From: Symmetrospora coprosmae
Taxonomy: Eukaryota > Basidiomycota > Cystobasidiomycetes > Symmetrosporaceae
Length of the DNA stretch: 64,000 nt
Reading direction: 5' to 3'
Assembly: GCA_008802785.1 (NCBI GenBank)
Contig: VUYT01000005.1
Location: 62,001 to 126,000 of the forward strand
Translations under genes and position numbers: made by a program
Notes under the pieces: generated by a model
Database searches by the model: none
The model's input: only the letters and a program-made list of their open reading frames with translations
What the model was told of the DNA's origin: nothing
Shown here: positions 31,782 through 40,354 of the stretch, piece by piece
Position numbering within the stretch: the first letter of the stretch is position 1
How the letters are laid out: every line of letters begins with the position of its first letter

Positions 31782-32438
31782 TCTGCCGGCAACTGCATGT
31801 GTACTTTGAGGAATAGAGGAGAGCAGGAGATAGGATGGGCCCGATGGCGCATGCGAGTGGGCGAGATGAGATGTGCCTGTCTATACGCGCTATCTTCGGC
31901 ATACGGGGGCGGCGATCCCGAGAGATGCCGAATTATATACGCGTGAAGCACGACACGGTTTGTCCAGCCCTGATAGCGACAATCAGGTCCGCACTAGCCA
32001 GATCCGCAATGAAGTACGTACAGCGCAGCAAGAAGAGGCCTCGCTCGAGTGGAAGCGAGCTTTCCCGCTCGCGCCCATCTCGTCCGTAGGCGATGAAGAT
32101 GCGCGGCATCATCAGCTTCTTCACTCGCTAGGGCTTGACAGCATCGCAGCCCCAATTGCGACGGCTCTGACGCCAGACGTGATGCCACGCGACCGCTGAC
32201 TGACTCTCCGCGAGCATTGACCTGCTCGAACACGGCGGAACACAGCCGGCGCGGAGGGGACGGACGGTCGACACGGTCCGGACTGTGCGACGCAAACAGC
32301 GGCACCGGGTCCGACGATCTCTGCAGAGCTGACGGGAGTACGCTTCTTGGCCCTCTCTGCTTCTGACGACTCTGCTCCATTCGCAATCTCCTTACGCCCC
32401 GCGTCACTGCTCCTGCTCTTGCCCGTACTTTCGCTGCC
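31782..32438. promoter_or_regulatory. Divergent upstream region between MFS and LRR-like genes
   Basis: 657 bp between two ATGs facing apart. Open frames cross it, but none is supported. Confidence 0.45.
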
Positions 32439-33593
32439 ATGACCCTCGACGACGTACCCTCCGCGCTCCACCTCACCGCTCGCGATTCCGTCTTCATCGA
32501 CTTCTCAACTTCCTTCCAGTTCGCCGAGGACGCCAACGACCCGCTGTACCCTTATACCCCACCGTCGCTCTCGGACTCCGTCGCACAGCTCATCGCGACA
32601 ACCGCCCCTGCCTCTGTGCGAACCTTGATCCTCTCCGTGCCATACCTGCCACGGAGCGCACAGACGGACGACGCGCTCGCGGCACTGCGGAGCTTCCTAT
32701 CCAGCCCGGCCTGCGGTGCAGTGCGCACGGTCAAGATCTGCGGGAGCTGCCATCTGCTCAATGACAGGTGGACCCTAGACGTCCTCAAACGGCGCTTCGG
32801 GCGAGACGGGGACTCGAAAAAGTGCATGGAGGAGCTCATACTGCAGGCCGACGGGGACAGCTACGCGATGGCTGCGGTCCTCGCTGCGTTCGAAGGCGTC
32901 AAGAAGCTCCGATGCACCTTGGGTCAAGTGCATGCGAGCTTCAAGGAGGAAACGCTCAGGACGATGGAGCAGCTAGAGGAGCTCGACATCGAAGTGACAG
33001 GCGATGCGTTTCAGCCGCGCAGCTTGACTGCGCTGCGGTCTCTGCGAGTTACTTTTGATGACTGGGACGGCCAGGGCGGGAGCCTGAGCGAAGCGCTCGC
33101 TGGGGCAGACTTGGATTCGCTTGCCTTGTCGCGGCGAGCCTGTCCGATGGTGAAGAGGCGCGACCCTCCTTCGAACGCCTTCGACCCTTATACGAGGGCG
33201 ACCAAGCCCGTCTACTCTTCGCCGACCAAGCTTCTCTCGGGGCTCTCCACGCTCGGCCACCTGGAGATCGCCTCCGGGTCTCTCAACGAGCCACTTGCGC
33301 TCGGCATGGATCTCCTCGACAGCATCCCCGCCTCCGTCTCATCGCTGTCGTTCAGAAACATCGCGATGCCGTTGAAGCTCCTCACGGAGCTCCGCCACCG
33401 CGTCCCCTTTTCGTACCCGAACCTGGAGTGCCTGCGGGTGGATCTGTATCTGCAGGCACAGGCAGGATGGTCCTTCATCCTTGGCCTGCTCGCCGATGAC
33501 CTTGAGCAGATGGGCGTTGCCCATCATCTGATCCTCCGGAGCGAGCTGAAGAAGGAGGAGAGGGCGTTTGGGATGGTTAGTCCCAGGGCGTAA
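32439..33593 (+). CDS. LRR-like protein of unknown function
   Basis: Intronless frame of 384 codons starting at ATG 32439 (gctgccATG, good context). The sequence has spaced leucine-rich blocks (VRTLILSVPYL, VRTVKICGSC, MEELILQADG, LEELDIEVTG, LRSLRVTFDD, LGHLEIASGS, VSSLSFRNIA, LECLRVDLYL), typical of degenerate LRRs in fungal F-box-like proteins. I see no clear F-box at the N-terminus (MTLDDVPSALHLTARDSVF) and no signal peptide or membrane span. It is not obviously a close copy of the F-box gene at 5075. Function unknown; a protein-interaction role is inferred only from the repeat pattern. Confidence 0.75.
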   Translation: MTLDDVPSALHLTARDSVFIDFSTSFQFAEDANDPLYPYTPPSLSDSVAQLIATTAPASVRTLILSVPYLPRSAQTDDALAALRSFLSSPACGAVRTVKICGSCHLLNDRWTLDVLKRRFGRDGDSKKCMEELILQADGDSYAMAAVLAAFEGVKKLRCTLGQVHASFKEETLRTMEQLEELDIEVTGDAFQPRSLTALRSLRVTFDDWDGQGGSLSEALAGADLDSLALSRRACPMVKRRDPPSNAFDPYTRATKPVYSSPTKLLSGLSTLGHLEIASGSLNEPLALGMDLLDSIPASVSSLSFRNIAMPLKLLTELRHRVPFSYPNLECLRVDLYLQAQAGWSFILGLLADDLEQMGVAHHLILRSELKKEERAFGMVSPRA

Positions 33594-34000
33594 GTGATGC
33601 GCACAGCAGCGAAGATAGTGCCTCTATTGATCGACGAGTTGTGACATAGCCTTGAGCTGGTCCAATGGGTGCCGTGTTAGGAAAATCAAGGCAGCTTCGA
33701 TGGGGAGGTGGACATTAGCACGGCTTGCACGGCTACAGTGTCAGCCAGTGCCCCCATCGCTACCGCGAGAAAACTATTTGCCAATCCTGTCAAACGTGCC
33801 AGTCATGGTCATTTGCATCCGAACGAAACGCTACACCCAAAGCCAGGGGGATTACTACGCGACAGGACAGAGGCGGCCGGACGGGCCCTTTTTCGACCCA
33901 GGGAGAGGCGGCCAGAGCCTAGCGAGTATATTCTTGTCCCCTAATGAAGGAAGTCGAAGTGGAGGCGGAGGCGGAGAAGCATATCGACTTGAGATTTCCG
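33594..34000. other. Intergenic, convergent 3' ends
   Basis: Between the LRR-like gene and the 3' end of the SUMO gene. There is a short ggaggcggaggcgga run near 33960. No gene seen. Confidence 0.5.
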
Positions 34001-34878
34001 CTACGAGGAACCTCCAACCTGGGAGAGAGAGGAGGGTGCTTCCTGCATCAGCCATATCGCGATGCGCATCTACGAGAAACGCCAGCATCGTGACATACCT
34101 GCTCTATCACGACATCGATCGAGTCGTTGTCCTCCATGTCGAGCTTCGCTGGCGTGTCATCGGCTCCGATCTTTACTCCATCGTACAGGAATTTGATCTG
34201 TGCGCGTTGATTGGAAGCAGGTGTCGAGTAAGCAGGCAGAGTCGGAAGTTTGTCAGTTACCAGCTGCGGAAGTACGAGCGGCAGCCGAGCTGTAGAGCCT
34301 GAGAAGATGTCCAACGCACGGTAGCCCTGTCTTGTCCTGTGATGCGAGCGAGGGAGGGCGTCAGCAAGGAATGGCCCGCTTCTCCCTGCGCATGGGCGCA
34401 GAATAGAGACAAGCTGCTAGAAGCTTACCGTTTCGGTCAGCGTAAGCATTCATGAGCTTCCCGAGCTTTGTTGACATCTTGATCTGAGTGGGATAGAGGA
34501 TAGGGCAGGTCTTTGCGTCAGCTGCTTTGTCCATCACCGCTCTTGCGTGAGTGTAGACCGGGAGTGCGAAGCAGCGGCGTGCGACCCCGGGATCTGCAGA
34601 GGCTGCTCATGTCGCATCCTTTCCCAGCTCACCTTGAAGAATGTCTCTGCATGGCTCGAGTCGACGACTTTGACTGCATCGCGCGCGGGAGTTCAGGCGT
34701 CCAGACGACGAAGATCGTGCGGCAGATCACAGCGACAGCAAGAGGGGGAACAGGGAAGCAACCTCGTCATACATCAGCACGCTCTCGGGTCATACACTAT
34801 GCCCGCAGCTCACTCACTGTTGATGTGGTCGTCTCCTCCTCCCTGCTTCTGCTCCTGCTGCTCCTCGTTGTCGGACAT
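34001..34878 (-). CDS. SMT3: SUMO (canonical Smt3)
   Basis: Ubiquitin-like modifier. Six exons on the minus strand: 34878-34818, 34673-34633, 34483-34429, 34336-34320 (17 nt), 34197-34099 and 34018-34001 (18 nt), giving 96 aa. It reads as a standard SUMO: acidic/Gln-rich N-tail (MSDNEEQQEQKQGGGDD), HINIKVVDSSHAETFFKIKM, LMNAYADRNG, IKFLYDGVKIGADDTPAKL and DMEDNDSIDVVIEQVGG, followed by a two-residue SS tail to be cut off by a Ulp protease. The diglycine and stop sit alone on the 18-nt last exon. If that intron is retained, the frame continues EQVCHDAGVS and stops without a diglycine. It is head-to-head with a divergent SUMO paralogue. Confidence 0.93.
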
Positions 34879-35327
34879 TGCGTGTGGGTGTGGGCAGACG
34901 AATGGGGATGCGGGCGTTGCTCAAGGGCAGTGTGCTGTGTCGTTCAGAGCAGGAACGTATGCTGTGTGCGCGTGTGTGTCGAGAATGGGTAGGAGCCAGA
35001 GAGTGTGCCAGAGCAGGGGCACTCAAGGAGGGAGAGCGAGGCGAGGCAGAACATGAACTGCAACATGCTCAGCAAGGACGGTACCGGCCAGGTGATAGAG
35101 TCAATGCAGTACGCGTCCATCCACAGCGCCGTGAGCCCTCTGCATTGATATCTGCATCTCTCGCAGACCTGCCCGTGTTGTCTGTCGTACGCCACAATCT
35201 GTGCCTCTTCTACGCGTGTCAGCTTGCCCCGGTTGGCCTCTCTTGCCTCCAACACCACAACAGCAGCACCAGCACCAGCAGCAGCGACACAAGAGGGCCT
35301 TGCACATCTCTCCCTCGCTCGCGCACC
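34879..35327. promoter_or_regulatory. Shared upstream region of two SUMO-family genes
   Basis: 449 bp between the minus-strand SMT3 start (34878) and the plus-strand paralogue start (35328). CA/TG-rich stretches (gtgtgggtgtggg, gtgcgcgtgtgtgtc) lie near 34880-34980. Both promoters must be here. Confidence 0.5.
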
Positions 35328-36116
35328 ATGTCCGCCTCACCCCCTGGCACGCCCGCGAAGGAGGACAAGGCGAAGGTGCGTGAACGAGTCTCGTGCTCCG
35401 AGAACCAGAAAGGCCTTCGCGCGATCTGGCTTGGCCGAGCGCTGCGTCCCGAGGAGCTGGCAGGACGCAGACGATGAGCTGACATCCTCCTCGCCTCTTT
35501 ATCCCTTGTCTTGCTCCTCGCTCATCCTCGCAGATAACGGTGAGAGATCCTTCCTGCACAACAGGCGCACCTGGCTGTCGACGCGCCGGCAGACTTTCTG
35601 ACGGCACACCTTATGCATCCCATCGGGGCGCACTTGCTTCCTCTTTATTCGCAGATCCACATTGGCTTTCAGAGTGGCGAGCCACTAGCCGTCAAAGTCA
35701 AGCTGACCACGCAGTTCAGCAAGATTCGCAAGTCGGTGCGCGATGCCCCTATCACCCTAGTCAACACCTCCCTACCGCCTTGGCTAACACCTCATGCTTG
35801 CATGATGGCACCTACTGCGCACCTCCTACGAGCAGATTGCGGATCAGAAAGGCATCTCGCCAAAGTCCTTCAGTCTTGCCTTCGATGGGGAAAGGTGCGT
35901 ACAGGCGCGACTTGCCCTGCCAGTCGCGTAAAGATAGTCTGATGCCGTTCACCTCGTTGGCCACAACCCGACAGGATCAGCGACGAGACTACACCGAAAA
36001 TGCTCGAGATGTCGGACGGAGATCAAATCGACGTGCAGCTCGCACAGGTCGGAGGCAGTGCATTGGCATCTTCTCCGCGGCAGCATACTCAAAGCAGGCC
36101 CGCTTCGACGCGTAGC
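35328..36116 (+). CDS. Divergent SUMO-like protein (paralogue 1)
   Basis: Ubiquitin-like fold protein ending in diglycine. Exons 35328-35375, predicted micro-exon 35534-35539, then 35655-35735 (81 nt), 35836-35894 (59 nt) and 35975-36116: 111 aa (109 without the micro-exon). Core: ITIHIGFQSGEPLAVKVK, TTQFSKIRKSIADQKGI, FSLAFDGERISDETTPKM, EMSDGDQIDVQLAQVGG. The TTPKMLEM/DxI/QVGG block is the SUMO signature. After the GG comes a 19-residue basic/Ser-rich tail (SALASSPRQHTQSRPASTR), longer than in normal SUMO, which would need cutting before conjugation. Exon sizes and phases match the next gene, so the two are tandem duplicates; N-termini also agree (MSAxPxGTP). Whether it is conjugated or acts as a decoy or inhibitor is unknown. 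Confidence 0.8.
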
Positions 36117-36549
36117 CAACGTACGCTTTCTCTACCTTGCTCTTCTTCCTCCTCGTAATTCTCAAGCTCCCCAGAAGAGCACTCCCATAGTTGTTGTAGC
36201 ATTACAACCGCACTCGCACTTCCGCAAATTTACCGCCTGATACGCGTGCTGATCCGGCGCCGTATATTGATTGGTATTCTGTATATTTTGCTACAGATGG
36301 GTTTCCGAGTGCCTAGCTTTTCGTGTGGGCTAGCCCTGCGACTCCGGCGCGTAGGCAAAGGCTGGAGACTCTGCCGCCTCACTTGTTGAAAGGAAGACCT
36401 CCGAGCACACTCTAGAGGCGTCCCGCAGAACCGCCCGCTCTCCGCACCTCTACTTCGCGCCTTCCGGATCCACCTCGACAACACGCGAGTCACAGCCGAA
36501 GAGGTGCATAGCAACACCGACAAGCGATACATTCATTCCTGCGCGCAAT
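36117..36549. other. Intergenic between tandem SUMO-like genes
   Basis: 433 bp with the promoter of the second paralogue. No gene seen. Confidence 0.5.
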
Positions 36550-37303
36550 ATGAGCGCCCCTCCCGAAGGCACACCCACCCCGGGGAGCCCCACGGGTGAC
36601 AGGTCCAAGGTACGCGTTTCGCGACGAGAGTCCGGAACAGGCCTGCTTCTGGGCTGCTATGCACACATGACGAGCTCTCCGCATGCGTTTCTTCGAAGCG
36701 CGGTCCCGAAGGTCGGCTGACACGGCCCTGAGCTTCCATCTGTACTGCCTATATACCCTTTGCCCCAGGTCGAAGTGAGCGCGTGTCCGAGCTGTACGAT
36801 ACGGATGCACGCCACCTGTCTGGTTCCTCTGAGCAAAACCACTCCTTCGCGCCACGTCTCCGACTGCCCGTGTGTATCGCACGCAACAGATCAGTGTCCA
36901 GTTTCAGAACGAAGAAGCGACGAGGTTCCGGGTCAAGCCTACCACCAAGTTTGCCAAGATCAGACAGACTGTGAGCCCGCGATAGCCTTCGGCCGTTCGT
37001 GCTTACAGTAACGCGCTGAAGGCTGCGCTCGTCTCCTTCTTGTAGCTGGCTAAAACAAGGGGCGTCGACGAGCAATCGTTCGTATTGAGGCTCGGCGACA
37101 CAAGGTGAGCTCGCGCGTGCGAGCTAGCGCTGTACGGCCGTATGGAGTGACGAAGGGCTCTTCCTCTGCCAGCAATTCACGCGACTGACCTGTTACTTTG
37201 CTTCCTCCCTCTGCGAAGAATCAATGATGACGATACCCCCAAGATGCATGAGATGGAGGGTGACCTCATTGAAGCCCACGTCCACCAGATTGGCGGCAAC
37301 TGA
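36550..37303 (+). CDS. Divergent SUMO-like protein (paralogue 2)
   Basis: Exons 36550-36609, predicted micro-exon 36769-36774, then 36890-36970 (81 nt), 37046-37104 (59 nt) and 37219-37303: 96 aa. Core: VEISVQFQNEEATRFRVK, TTKFAKIRQTLAKTRGV, FVLRLGDTRINDDDTPKM, HEMEGDLIEAHVHQIGG, then a single Asn. By eye it is about 40% identical to the preceding paralogue over the ubiquitin-like core and clearly less like SMT3. The loop that is FLYDG in SMT3 is RLGDT here, so contacts with the E1/E2 enzymes may differ. The exposed end needs removal of only one residue to give a free diglycine. Product function is unknown; the family call rests on fold-wide pattern plus the conserved DTPKM..QIGG end. Confidence 0.8.
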
Positions 37304-37733
37304 GGCAATCAGACGACAGCACTGTATACTGTATCCGCCGCAGCATCAGTCGTACGAGACGGTCGGCCTGCCAGAACAGTAGCGTTCACTCAAGAGAGCA
37401 GTGGGATCGAATGATTGTGGGAGACCTCTTTGACTGGGTTGAGGGAGGGGGAACATCGCTGTTGTTGTTGCATAACATGAACATGAAAAGCAAGCGGCCA
37501 TATCGTGATCCGTTACCAGCCGCAGACTCAAGGTCGAGAAGAGAGCCGACCCGGAGACGTCCGGGCATCCCACTTCCGTCGAATGCGACGCATTCATGCT
37601 TCTCATCACCGCGCAATCCGCACAGATCGTTTTCAGCTACGAGGTCCGCTTGTATCGTGACTCCCTCATGTTTTCATCGCTCTGGTGCCACTCTGCTTCC
37701 TCATTCAGTTCTTTCCATCATCTTCATGCCGCC
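37304..37733. other. Intergenic, convergent 3' ends
   Basis: Between SUMO paralogue 2 and the 3' end of TOM70. No gene seen. If the last TOM70 intron is not spliced, that frame reaches a stop at 37705. Confidence 0.5.
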
Positions 37734-40354
37734 TCAGATCCTGCCCTGAGCGAGTCCAAGCTTGTGTGCATACTGCGGTGTTACGCACGGTCAGCCTTAT
37801 AGCACTGTGCTCGTGTTGGGTTCGCTGTACGCCCACCTCCGGGTATTTCTCAATGAAGTCGAGCTGCGCCCGCGTGGCATTCTCGTACGCAAGCGCGTTG
37901 ACAAGCTCCGGCTCGGTCCTTGCAACCTCCGCCGACTGCTGGAATGCCTCGACGGCCTCGTGCACCTTGTTCTGCTGCAGAAGCAGCTGGCCAAGCGTGG
38001 CGACGGCAATGTCGCATGACGGGTCGAGCTGGAGCGCTTCCCGGCAGATGGCCTCTGCCTCAGGCAGAGCCTGGCGCGACTGGTACAGGCAAAGTGCCTT
38101 GTTAACCATTGGCAGCACGTTAGTCGGTGCGCCAGGGCTGTCGAGTTGGATAATCAGGATCAGCCTTAGTAGCTTTGCAAGCCAAGCGGTTTGGGGCGCA
38201 CCTTGTCTTGGTCTTCTCGAGCGCAATGGCCTTGTCGAGGTTCTCGAGTGCAGGGGTGAACTCTCCTCGGTCGAGCAGGATCTCGCCATAGTAGTTGAAC
38301 CTGCGAATGGTTGTTTGCAAATCAGTGGCAGGCCACCGAGAACGGAGTAGGCTGAGCGCAGCCCACGCTTCCGGGCTCTCCTCCCCAAAGTCGCGGATAA
38401 TCTTCTTGAACATGTGCATGGCCTTCTCTGCCTGCTCATTCTTGTACATTGCCACCGCGAGCTGGATCTGCGAGAAGACGAAGCGGTCGTCGAGCTCTGT
38501 CGACTTGCGGTACTCTCCGATGGCCTCTTGGAATTGGCCGGTGATGAAGTACACCTGGCCACGGTGGTAGTAGATGTCCGGGTCGGCATCATCGATCTTG
38601 GCTGCCTCCTCGAAGGCGGCGAACGCGGCGCTTGGGTCCGAGAGCTCCATGTGAACGGAAGCCTTCTTGACCCAGGTCTGCGTGTACTGTGGGTACAGCG
38701 AGACACTCTCTTCCATGTCCGACAGCGCACCGGGCGCATCGCCAATGATGAACTTGAATGTTCCGCGCATGTTGAGCGCGCGTCCCTTGAGCTTGTCCTC
38801 GGAGATGCCCTGCTCGATAGCCTCGTTGAATAGCGAGAATGCGTGCGGATAGTTCTTGGCGTCGACGGCGTCGAAAGCCAGGAACAGCGTCTCATCGCCT
38901 TGAGACGGGCTCGACGGCTTGGTCGGACGGTCGCCTGCGGGAGCGACAGTGTCAACGAATAAGCAAATCCTCGTGATAGGACGCATCTGACTTACGATTC
39001 CGGAAAGCCTCCATGTATGCCTTGATGAATGTGGGACTGGGCAGTCTCGGCTCTCGGGTGCGCATGATGGCCGATCCCTTCTCTTGCGCAAGCTGCTTCA
39101 TGACTCTGTCGACTGCCTTGGCCATGCTCTCGTTCTGGAAGCCATCGATAATAGCGCCAGCCGTAAAGTCTGATGATTGCACCAAGCTTTGACCATCAGC
39201 TTTGCTCCGATCAGCAGCTCATGCTCGTCGACACCCACCACACAGGGCCTTGAATAGGTTCTCTTCGCCACCTAGTGCCTCCTGTGCCGAACCTCGTCGG
39301 TTCAGCGCCTTCACGTAGCTAGGGTCCAGTCTGAGGGCGTCTGTGCAGTCCTTGACCACCTCCTCATTCTTGTTCAGGTTCGTGTAGCCTGAAGCGAAGG
39401 CCAGAGATCAGCTGCTGTCAGAAAGGTAGACAACAGGCTGTAGTGCTCACACGCCGCGCGGTTTGAGTAATACACAGCCTGCTCGTCGCACTCGATAGCT
39501 TTGCTGTAGATCTCGATAGCCTCGTCGAACTTCTTGCCGGAGTAGGCCTTGTTGCCCTTGGTCTTGAGGTCCGCACCAATCTGTTTCCGGCGCTATTGAC
39601 AAGAGGCGAGGTCAGAAGAGTGCCAATGCCTTGACGTGCCCATGCGACCTCTCATTCAACTCACTTCGATGGGCAACGCGGCGAGCTGTGCCGAGGTGAG
39701 CTTGAGGGGATCTGTCGGTTCCGGAGGCACGTCAGCAGGCGCTTCAGCAAGCACGTCACGCCTAAAGCGGCGCATCGCAGTCCCTCTGCTCAGCTCACCC
39801 TCTGACTCCGAGTCGCCATCCGAGACGGTCGGACTCGACACTGACTTCTCTCCCGCTGCCGACGCTCCTGCACCGCCGGCTGCGGTCGCACTCGAGGTGC
39901 TGCCACCAGCAGAAGCCGTCGATTTCCTACTCTTCTTCTTCTTCTTTTTAGCAGCGGCCGCACTGGCTGCAGCGTTGCCAGACGCACGCTTGTCTGCCGC
40001 TCCCGTGGCTGCATCATCCTCATCCCCCGCTGCTGCATCCAGGTCCCCGTCCAGTTCCTGCTGCTGCTGCTTCTTCCTGCGCTCTGCATCGGACCGCTTG
40101 ACGGCTGGCGGTGGCCGCGTGTAGTAGTAGTAGCCCGCAGCCCCCCCTGCGACCACGACGCCAGCACCAGCTGCTATGATGAGCGCTCGACGGTTGCGCT
40201 CGACAAAGTCGGAAACCCTGCTCGAGAAGGGCGCGGCGGTAGCGGCAGCAGAGGACGAGCTCGCACCCGCTCCTGCCGCTGCGGTGATGCCGCTGCCAAG
40301 CTGTCCGTTGGTCGTGCTCGCTATCGAGCTCGCTGGGTGCGAATATCCTGACAT
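37734..40354 (-). CDS. TOM70: Mitochondrial import receptor Tom70
   Basis: Outer-membrane TPR receptor for carrier-type preproteins delivered by Hsp70/Hsp90. Eight exons on the minus strand: 40354-39665, 39592-39451, 39388-39244, 39186-38996, 38934-38367, 38300-38202, 38137-37837 and 37772-37734 (724 aa). N-terminal single membrane anchor (about residues 57-78, RALIIAAGAGVVVAGGAAGYYYYTR), then a long charged low-complexity linker, the Hsp-binding TPRs (KTKGNKAYSGKKFDEAIEIY, YYSNRAACYTNL) and the preprotein-binding TPR array (YYHRGQVYFITGQFQEAI, SPEAFNYYGEILLDRGEF, VLPMVNKALCLYQ). Intron positions were chosen for TPR continuity. The last one (37773-37836, CTGAC branch) gives YPEYAHKLGLAQG at the C-terminus. 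ATG 40354 was chosen so the anchor lies near the N-terminus; an upstream in-frame extension exists but is not family-like. Confidence 0.93.

Follow-up and report, generated by a model that had tools for sequence, protein, structure and literature searches.

A canonical SMT3 gene and two divergent SUMO paralogues lie side by side

SUMO (small ubiquitin-like modifier) is a small protein tag, and a 64,000-nt stretch of DNA from the basidiomycete Symmetrospora coprosmae (the window; all coordinates below are positions within it) raises the question of what a fungus might do with three SUMO-family genes placed side by side. Baker's yeast is described with a single SUMO in the available portion of PMC8415633. 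The initial annotation had placed a minus-strand SMT3 next to two plus-strand relatives, and the gene models that we built from the raw sequence with GT..AG splice borders bore this out, giving three in-frame genes at that place: SMT3, which is a canonical SUMO, and two divergent paralogues that we call P2 and P3. We propose, with a probability of roughly one half, that P2 and P3 represent a second, diverged and fast-changing SUMO type beside SMT3, which would share enzymes with Smt3 and be recognized by other readers, with P3 possibly acting as a chain-poor or competing form.

The SMT3 model (34878-34001, minus strand; 96 aa; PF11976 match) comprises six exons (34878-34818, 34673-34633, 34483-34429, 34336-34320, 34197-34099 and 34018-34001) and ends in ...IEQVGG followed by SS. 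P2 lies head-to-head with it, and the 449 bp between the two start codons (34879-35327) form a putative promoter region, possibly shared. P2 itself (35328-36158, plus strand; PF11976 match) encodes a precursor of 125 aa in five exons (35328-35375, 35534-35539, 35655-35735, 35836-35894 and 35975-36158, the last with the stop codon), and P3 (36550-37303, plus strand; PF11976 match and a clade with P2 and the relative P0004, described below) encodes 96 aa, likewise in five exons (36550-36609, 36769-36774, 36890-36970, 37046-37104 and 37219-37303). The first exons of P2 and P3 supply 16 and 20 residues, respectively, N-terminal to the SUMO domain. At the other end, P3 closes with ...HQIGG and a single Asn, as the initial annotation had it, whereas the 19-residue tail given there to P2 had to be replaced by one of 33 residues: the P2 core ends in ...LAQVGG and the frame continues to an in-frame TAA at 36156-36158, while the TAG at 36113-36115 that would have produced the shorter tail is out of frame.

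All four intron places and phases are common to P2 and P3, exons 2, 3 and 4 measure 6, 81 and 59 nt in both genes, and intron 2 is 115 nt in each. Exon 2 is a micro-exon that falls in the first beta strand, reading ATAACG (Ile-Thr) in P2 (35534-35539, plus strand) and GTCGAA (Val-Glu) at the same place in P3 (36769-36774, plus strand); both are supported by P0004 of Cystobasidium minutum, which has two residues there (Ile-Glu, in KIEIRV). Skipping of the micro-exon would keep the frame open and leave the first beta strand two residues shorter. SMT3, too, contains a very small exon (34320-34336; 17 nt). Duplication during assembly was considered as a source of the pair and rejected, the copies being merely 45% identical and both present on one contig.

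P2 and P3 have SUMO-type domains

Both paralogues exceeded the cut-off of PF11976 (Rad60-SLD; 23.8 bits), with 60.0 bits for P2 and 37.9 bits for P3 compared with 73.3 bits for SMT3, and each of the three scored lower against the ubiquitin family PF00240 (P2 43.6, P3 28.2 and SMT3 38.0 bits). P0004 behaved in the same manner (62.1 bits for PF11976 vs 37.9 for PF00240). The Q-x-G-G end is present throughout, as QVGG in P2, QIGG in P3 and QVGG in P0004. Among solved structures, the top sequence match of P2 and P3 alike was a two-unit SUMO2 chain (4bkg); for P2 this was followed by three polyubiquitin chains, which scored through summed repeats with none passing singly, and the other matches included SUMO fusions. 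A fold model was made for P0004 from a 25-row alignment that included Smt3 proteins (mean predicted local distance difference test score (pLDDT) of 77; predicted template modelling score of 0.58) and was used in place of a single-sequence fold, which was set aside at a pLDDT of 66. When this model was compared with the PDB using Foldseek, 47 of the best 50 of 1889 matches (E <= 10) were titled SUMO, Smt3/SMO1 or SMT fusion, the rows without a SUMO-type title among these 50 being 9lhp, 3v7o and 5yca; as modelled, the fold of P0004 is that of SUMO.

The strong divergence that had been noted between P2 and P3 is real, with 45% identity over the full alignment and 33/76 residues identical in the core, and core identity to the local Smt3 is 26/77 for P2 and 23/76 for P3. 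The loop also differs among the three proteins as described initially, reading FLYDG in Smt3, LAFDG in P2 and LRLGD in P3.

Trees were built from a core alignment of only 77 columns, in which P0009 was truncated at 92 residues and P0010 entered without its first 16. The first tree held 14 of 102 Smt3 matches, six of the eight P2/P3 relatives described in the next section (all but the fragments P0007 and P0008) and the genome's ubiquitin and Rad60-type domain; for the second, ubiquitin, Rad60, P0006 and P0103 were dropped and four SUMOs added; a third set repeated the second minus P3 and/or the double-SUMO group, by which we mean P0001-P0003 (two domains each) and the single-domain P0005, seven domains in all. 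P2, P3 and P0004 formed a clade with support of 97/99 in the first tree, 100/99 in the second and 100/100 in the third set without the double-SUMO group. A placement of both paralogues within SUMO, as the initial annotation expected, was obtained in the best tree, but a grouping of the two paralogues with ubiquitin was not rejected (approximately unbiased (AU) test, p 0.36) in a comparison from which Nedd8 and Urm1 were absent and in which the ubiquitin and Rad60 branches of the first tree were saturated (length 10).

A P2-type protein accompanies Smt3 in Cystobasidium minutum

We searched for protein relatives with P2 and P3 jointly and kept eight of 47 candidates: P0004 of C. minutum; P0007 and P0008; and P0001-P0003, P0005 and P0006. 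This joint search found one P2-type protein only in C. minutum and no separate P3 there, and a search with P3 alone returned no protein sharing three 5-residue words with it. P0004 has three residues past the GG, and its core is identical to that of P2 at 49/77 positions and to that of P3 at 37/76; since it is closer to P3 than P2 is (33/76) and could be sister to both, P0004 may represent the pair. Over the same two genera Smt3 is identical at 65/77 core residues (C. minutum P0012 vs local Smt3), so that the P2 core changes faster than Smt3 (49/77 vs 65/77), yet is conserved. The local Smt3 is 78% identical to that of C. minutum and 87% identical to a protein from a metagenome-assembled genome of Cyphobasidiales, both being Cystobasidiomycetes. 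P0004 and P0012 are each on a contig of 4,042,679 bases and therefore very likely lie on one scaffold.

P0007 and P0008 are metagenomic proteins from very near relatives, which we read as P2 exon 3 (35655-35735, plus strand) with its introns, and in both the exon is kept and the adjoining intron is not. Compared with the window, P0007 had changed at 1/27 exon-3 residues and at 11/29 residues of the translated intron (Fisher p 0.0025), and P0008 at 1/27 and 5/14, respectively (Fisher p 0.013; its downstream intron, with 10/15 residues unlike and a change in length, was excluded), the two tests not being independent because their sources are closely related. As for the frames in related species, on which the initial annotation had made its reading depend, C. 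minutum carries an intact annotated protein of the P2 type, and P2 exon 3 is intact in P0007 and P0008. Between P2 and P3, codon positions 1, 2 and 3 differ in 32, 26 and 50 of 76 codons, most often at the third. This pattern, the common exon plan and the presence of P0004 in another genus speak against a product of chance.

Shared residue changes suggest altered contact surfaces

We then compared the contact residues of yeast Smt3, as given in Table 1 of the accessible part of PMC5319795, across 15 proteins (yeast numbering throughout). P2, P3 and P0004 share the changes D30F, L45F, F52I/L, R55Q/T, L63F and F65L, which look like a repacked core together with altered surfaces for the SUMO-interacting motif (SIM) and for the back side of Ubc9. 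In yeast, D30R, F65A and R55A are listed as lethal (PMC5319795, same part). At the 12 lethal positions compared (the triple mutant H23/I24/V28 was excluded, and the table's N85 is D85 in the sequence), the counts of identical/similar residues were 10/12 for the local Smt3, 8/11 for human SUMO1 and 8/10 for human SUMO2, and 6/10 for P0004, 5/9 for P2 and 6/8 for P3.

P2 keeps the Asp68-Gly69 turn, and the residue corresponding to yeast Asp68 is Gly in P3. This altered turn, LRLGDTR, is borne by exon 4 of P3 (37046-37104, plus strand), where GD stands in place of a DG that is kept in all other SUMO rows of the alignment except human SUMO1 (EG). Because it has no Asp or Glu at position 68, we did not class P3 as a canonical Smt3; it keeps K40, T43, Q95, G97 and G98. 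According to the excerpted text of PMC8636563, the backside contact of yeast Smt3 with Arg13 and Arg17 of Ubc9 is disrupted by D68R, which reduces polySUMO chains most of all. Loss of Asp68 would fit a chain-poor or competing form of P3. An expanded and specialised SUMO set had been suggested for this locus at the outset: the expansion stands, as C. minutum has both Smt3 and a P2-type protein and the clade is supported, and what points to specialisation is the residues just described.

One Ubc9 and one Uba2 were found in the genome

As a genome query, P3 found five places, all within the P2 and P3 genes, and P2 found nine, namely the P2 and P3 genes and weak ubiquitin matches at C27 and C44. 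Neither query found further P2/P3 copies elsewhere in the genome, nor did either reach SMT3 itself, so that a copy as distant as SMT3 would escape them. A genome search with PF11976 gave seven places (SMT3, a Rad60-type domain at C1, ubiquitin at C27 and C44, and C33) and missed the P2 and P3 exons, and such genes can therefore escape PF11976. One clear Ubc9 was found at C26 (73% to human in its best exon); it keeps Arg13/Arg17, in LAEERKQWRKDHPF (read by eye). The same genome searches, which were read exon by exon and whose counts are thus lower bounds, yielded one UAE_UbL/Uba2 place, one MIZ (E3) place and C48 protease at two places.

A proposed role for P2 and P3, and the alternatives

We propose that part of the Cystobasidiomycetes may keep a second SUMO type next to an ordinary SMT3. 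P2 and P3 would start as precursors that a Ulp-type protease cuts behind the diglycine, and Smt3's own E1 and Ubc9 would attach them to proteins. The main difference from Smt3 would lie in their readers, given that the SIM groove and the Ubc9-back face appear altered alike in P2, P3 and P0004. With its Asp68-Gly69 turn, P2 should serve as a separate tag. P3, without Asp68, should bind the back side of Ubc9 poorly, and slow conjugation, few chains and competition with Smt3 for the shared enzymes would be expected from this. The scheme builds on gene structure, family, clade, residue changes and the one Ubc9 and one Uba2 found, all of them read from sequence, from which we infer expression, maturation, conjugation and the change of partners.

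A number of observations weigh against this proposal. The P3 branch is the longest of the clade, at 1.31, 1.04 and 1.5 in the first, second and third trees, which, along with the lack of a homologue in the P3-alone search, raises the possibility that the gene is in decay. Branching within the clade has support of 55/23 in the second tree, and P0004 may be the sister of either paralogue or of the pair. R55E leaves yeast viable, unlike R55A (PMC5319795, as excerpted); position 30, which is Phe in P2, P3 and P0004, is altered in both aligned human SUMOs as well (Gly); Gln at R55 and Leu at F65 are also found in the genome's Rad60-type domain, and Leu at F65 also in ubiquitin. Counts of contacts identical to yeast (residues from the same table) decide nothing for E1 (4/9 in P2, 6/9 in P3 and 4/9 in the local Smt3). 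For the back side of Ubc9 they are 4/15, 5/15 and 9/15 in the same order, for Ulp1 6, 7 and 9 of 18 (similar: 10, 8 and 14) and for SIM contacts 3, 3 and 9 of 11 (similar: 9, 7 and 10). The low Ulp1 similarity of P3 argues against its efficient maturation. In addition, a second Ubc9 or protease could have escaped the genome searches.

The alternative that survives best, which we consider possible though doubtful, is that P2 and P3 are a fast-diverged local duplication of SMT3 bringing nothing new beyond dosage or expression timing. They stand head-to-head beside SMT3, a position that favours an old local duplication, and plants and Chlamydomonas provide precedents for SUMO duplicates in tandem (PMC11371177, available text). 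Yet none of the four P2/P3 intron places equals any of the five in SMT3, the nearest being one base off (alignment read by eye). The trees point both ways as to a local or an older origin. When the double-SUMO group was present, a common clade with Cystobasidiomycete Smt3 was rejected or borderline (p 0.021 in the first tree, 0.046 in the second and 0.012 in the third set without P3), and one with all sampled fungal Smt3 had p 0.083 in the second tree and 0.0215 in the third set without P3. When it was taken out, the third set rejected none of three groupings examined, and the Cystobasidiomycete Smt3 clade had an AU p of 0.226 with P3 and 0.232 without it. The changes at yeast-lethal positions (PMC5319795, Table 1) argue against plain redundancy.

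We regard it as rather unlikely that P2 is functional and P3 a relic, that is, a tandem duplicate in the P2 lineage that is drifting to a pseudogene and is still open by chance. The absence of a homologue in the P3-alone search and the long P3 branch in all trees would agree with decay, as would the change of the turn from DG, kept elsewhere save for the EG of human SUMO1, to GD, and the low similarity at Ulp1 contacts (8/18). However, P3 shows no damage in its five exons, eight splice borders or reading frame, the chance of 96 unconstrained codons staying open is ~0.03 (stops make up 3.6% of random codons of the same base composition), and the residues K40, T43, Q95, G97 and G98 are retained. 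It is the intact frame that speaks for function in P3, and such a frame would also be compatible with recent loss of function.

Less probable still is a role for both paralogues as unattached SUMO-like regulators or competitive inhibitors, which would bind enzymes or readers without ending up on substrates. Many of the Ulp1, Ubc9-back and SIM contacts are unlike those of both yeast and local Smt3, and the 33-residue tail of P2 would persist if uncut. Loss of the GG would be expected were conjugation not selected, yet P2, P3 and P0004 all still have Q-[VI]-G-G, P3 even has a yeast-like EAH..QIGG stretch, and P0004 carries only three residues past the GG. The retained Q-x-G-G argues against a purely non-conjugated role, as judged from these three proteins.

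An origin outside fungal SMT3, from an old or acquired type akin to other eukaryotic SUMOs including two-domain proteins, appears very improbable, for although the P2 core is nearest after P0004 to the first domain of P0002 (37/77), P0005 (36/77) and the first domain of P0001 (36/77) rather than to the local Smt3 (26/77), and the clade joined the double-SUMO group at 99/96 in the second tree and in the third set without P3, we do not take this grouping as proof because the group was fetched by its similarity to P2 and P3, which biases a comparison of only 77 columns, because the grouping is absent from the first tree (p 0.218, merely unrejected) and because the evidence against a local origin disappears once the group is dropped, while none of its seven domains has D30F, F52I/L, L63F or F65L (alignment read by eye), the clade with all sampled fungal Smt3 is unrejected with P3 though rejected without it, and chance arrival next to SMT3 is unlikely. 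The same low odds apply to a separate second SUMO system, old or acquired rather than derived from the fungus's own SMT3, with shared enzymes and its own readers, in which P3 would be a chain-stopping tag without a grip on the back of Ubc9.

Within the double-SUMO group, P0001, P0002 and P0003 (171-182 aa) have two SUMO domains in tandem, each with a GG end, and are possible poly-SUMO precursors comparable to polyubiquitin. Viral contigs scanned for this group gave 60 pattern matches, none of which was confirmed, and the papers listed in a literature search on double-SUMO proteins added nothing of use.

Comparison with known SUMO systems

Human SUMO1 on the one hand and SUMO2/3 and SUMO4 on the other are paralogues that are unlike in partner choice and chain ability. 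Human SUMO1 and SUMO2 keep R55, F65 and an Asp or Glu at position 68, whereas R55 and F65 are both replaced in the two fungal paralogues, as is position 68 in P3. With fungal Smt3/Pmt3, P2 and P3 have in common the SUMO-type domain, the N-tail, the Q-x-G-G end and residues after the GG. From yeast Smt3 they differ in core identity (22/76 for P2 and 25/75 for P3), in D30, R55 and F65, which are changed across the clade, and in the absence of D68 from P3, and from the local SMT3 they differ in exon plan. C. minutum P0004 matches them in its core changes and in a GG followed by further residues (three), and its post-GG tail is shorter than that of P2. Rad60/Esc2-type domains share PF11976 with P2 and P3, but the one at C1 in this genome has no diglycine in frame, whereas the two paralogues are small, free-standing proteins that carry the GG.

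Plants and Chlamydomonas also have additional diverged SUMOs, some of them in tandem: according to the available portions of PMC8415633 and PMC11371177, Arabidopsis has tandem SUMO4/6 and 7/8, and Chlamydomonas has SUMOs 161 bp apart, single copies of SAE1 and SAE2 and three SCE1 (E2) homologues. Chlamydomonas differs in belonging to the green lineage and in these three SCE1 homologues vs the one Ubc9 found in S. coprosmae. Among the papers listed when the open-licence literature was searched for several fungal SUMO genes and for SUMO in Cystobasidium or Cyphobasidium, we found no title or opening of an abstract that reports a second fungal SUMO type.

More than the one SUMO of baker's yeast thus seems to be in use in some Cystobasidiomycetes. 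With one Ubc9 and one Uba2 found and two SUMO types adjacent, the small genome of S. coprosmae would be a compact system for asking how paralogues divide work, for instance which surface determines the choice of partners, and whether a SUMO that has naturally given up its backside contact with Ubc9 can remain in use. The changes at D30, R55, F65 and D68 could also serve as natural variants for the yeast mutational map, some yeast substitutions at these positions being lethal or conditional (PMC5319795, accessible part).

Flanking frames and a ubiquitin locus

An Rfam scan of the whole 64-kb window gave no match, and a tandem-repeat scan of 32000-40000 found none. Past the 3' end of SMT3 lies a plus-strand open frame of 384 aa (32439-33593) with no Pfam match at E 0.01, and past the 3' end of P3 a minus-strand open frame with TPR repeats (38120-38986; Pfam TPR_2 and others), which may resemble Tom70-type import receptors. 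Elsewhere in the genome, C27:2818-3779 (loci L008, L009, L012 and L018) holds ubiquitin units at a spacing of ~310 bp, separated by intron-like stretches, and has the appearance of a polyubiquitin gene whose units each contain an intron.

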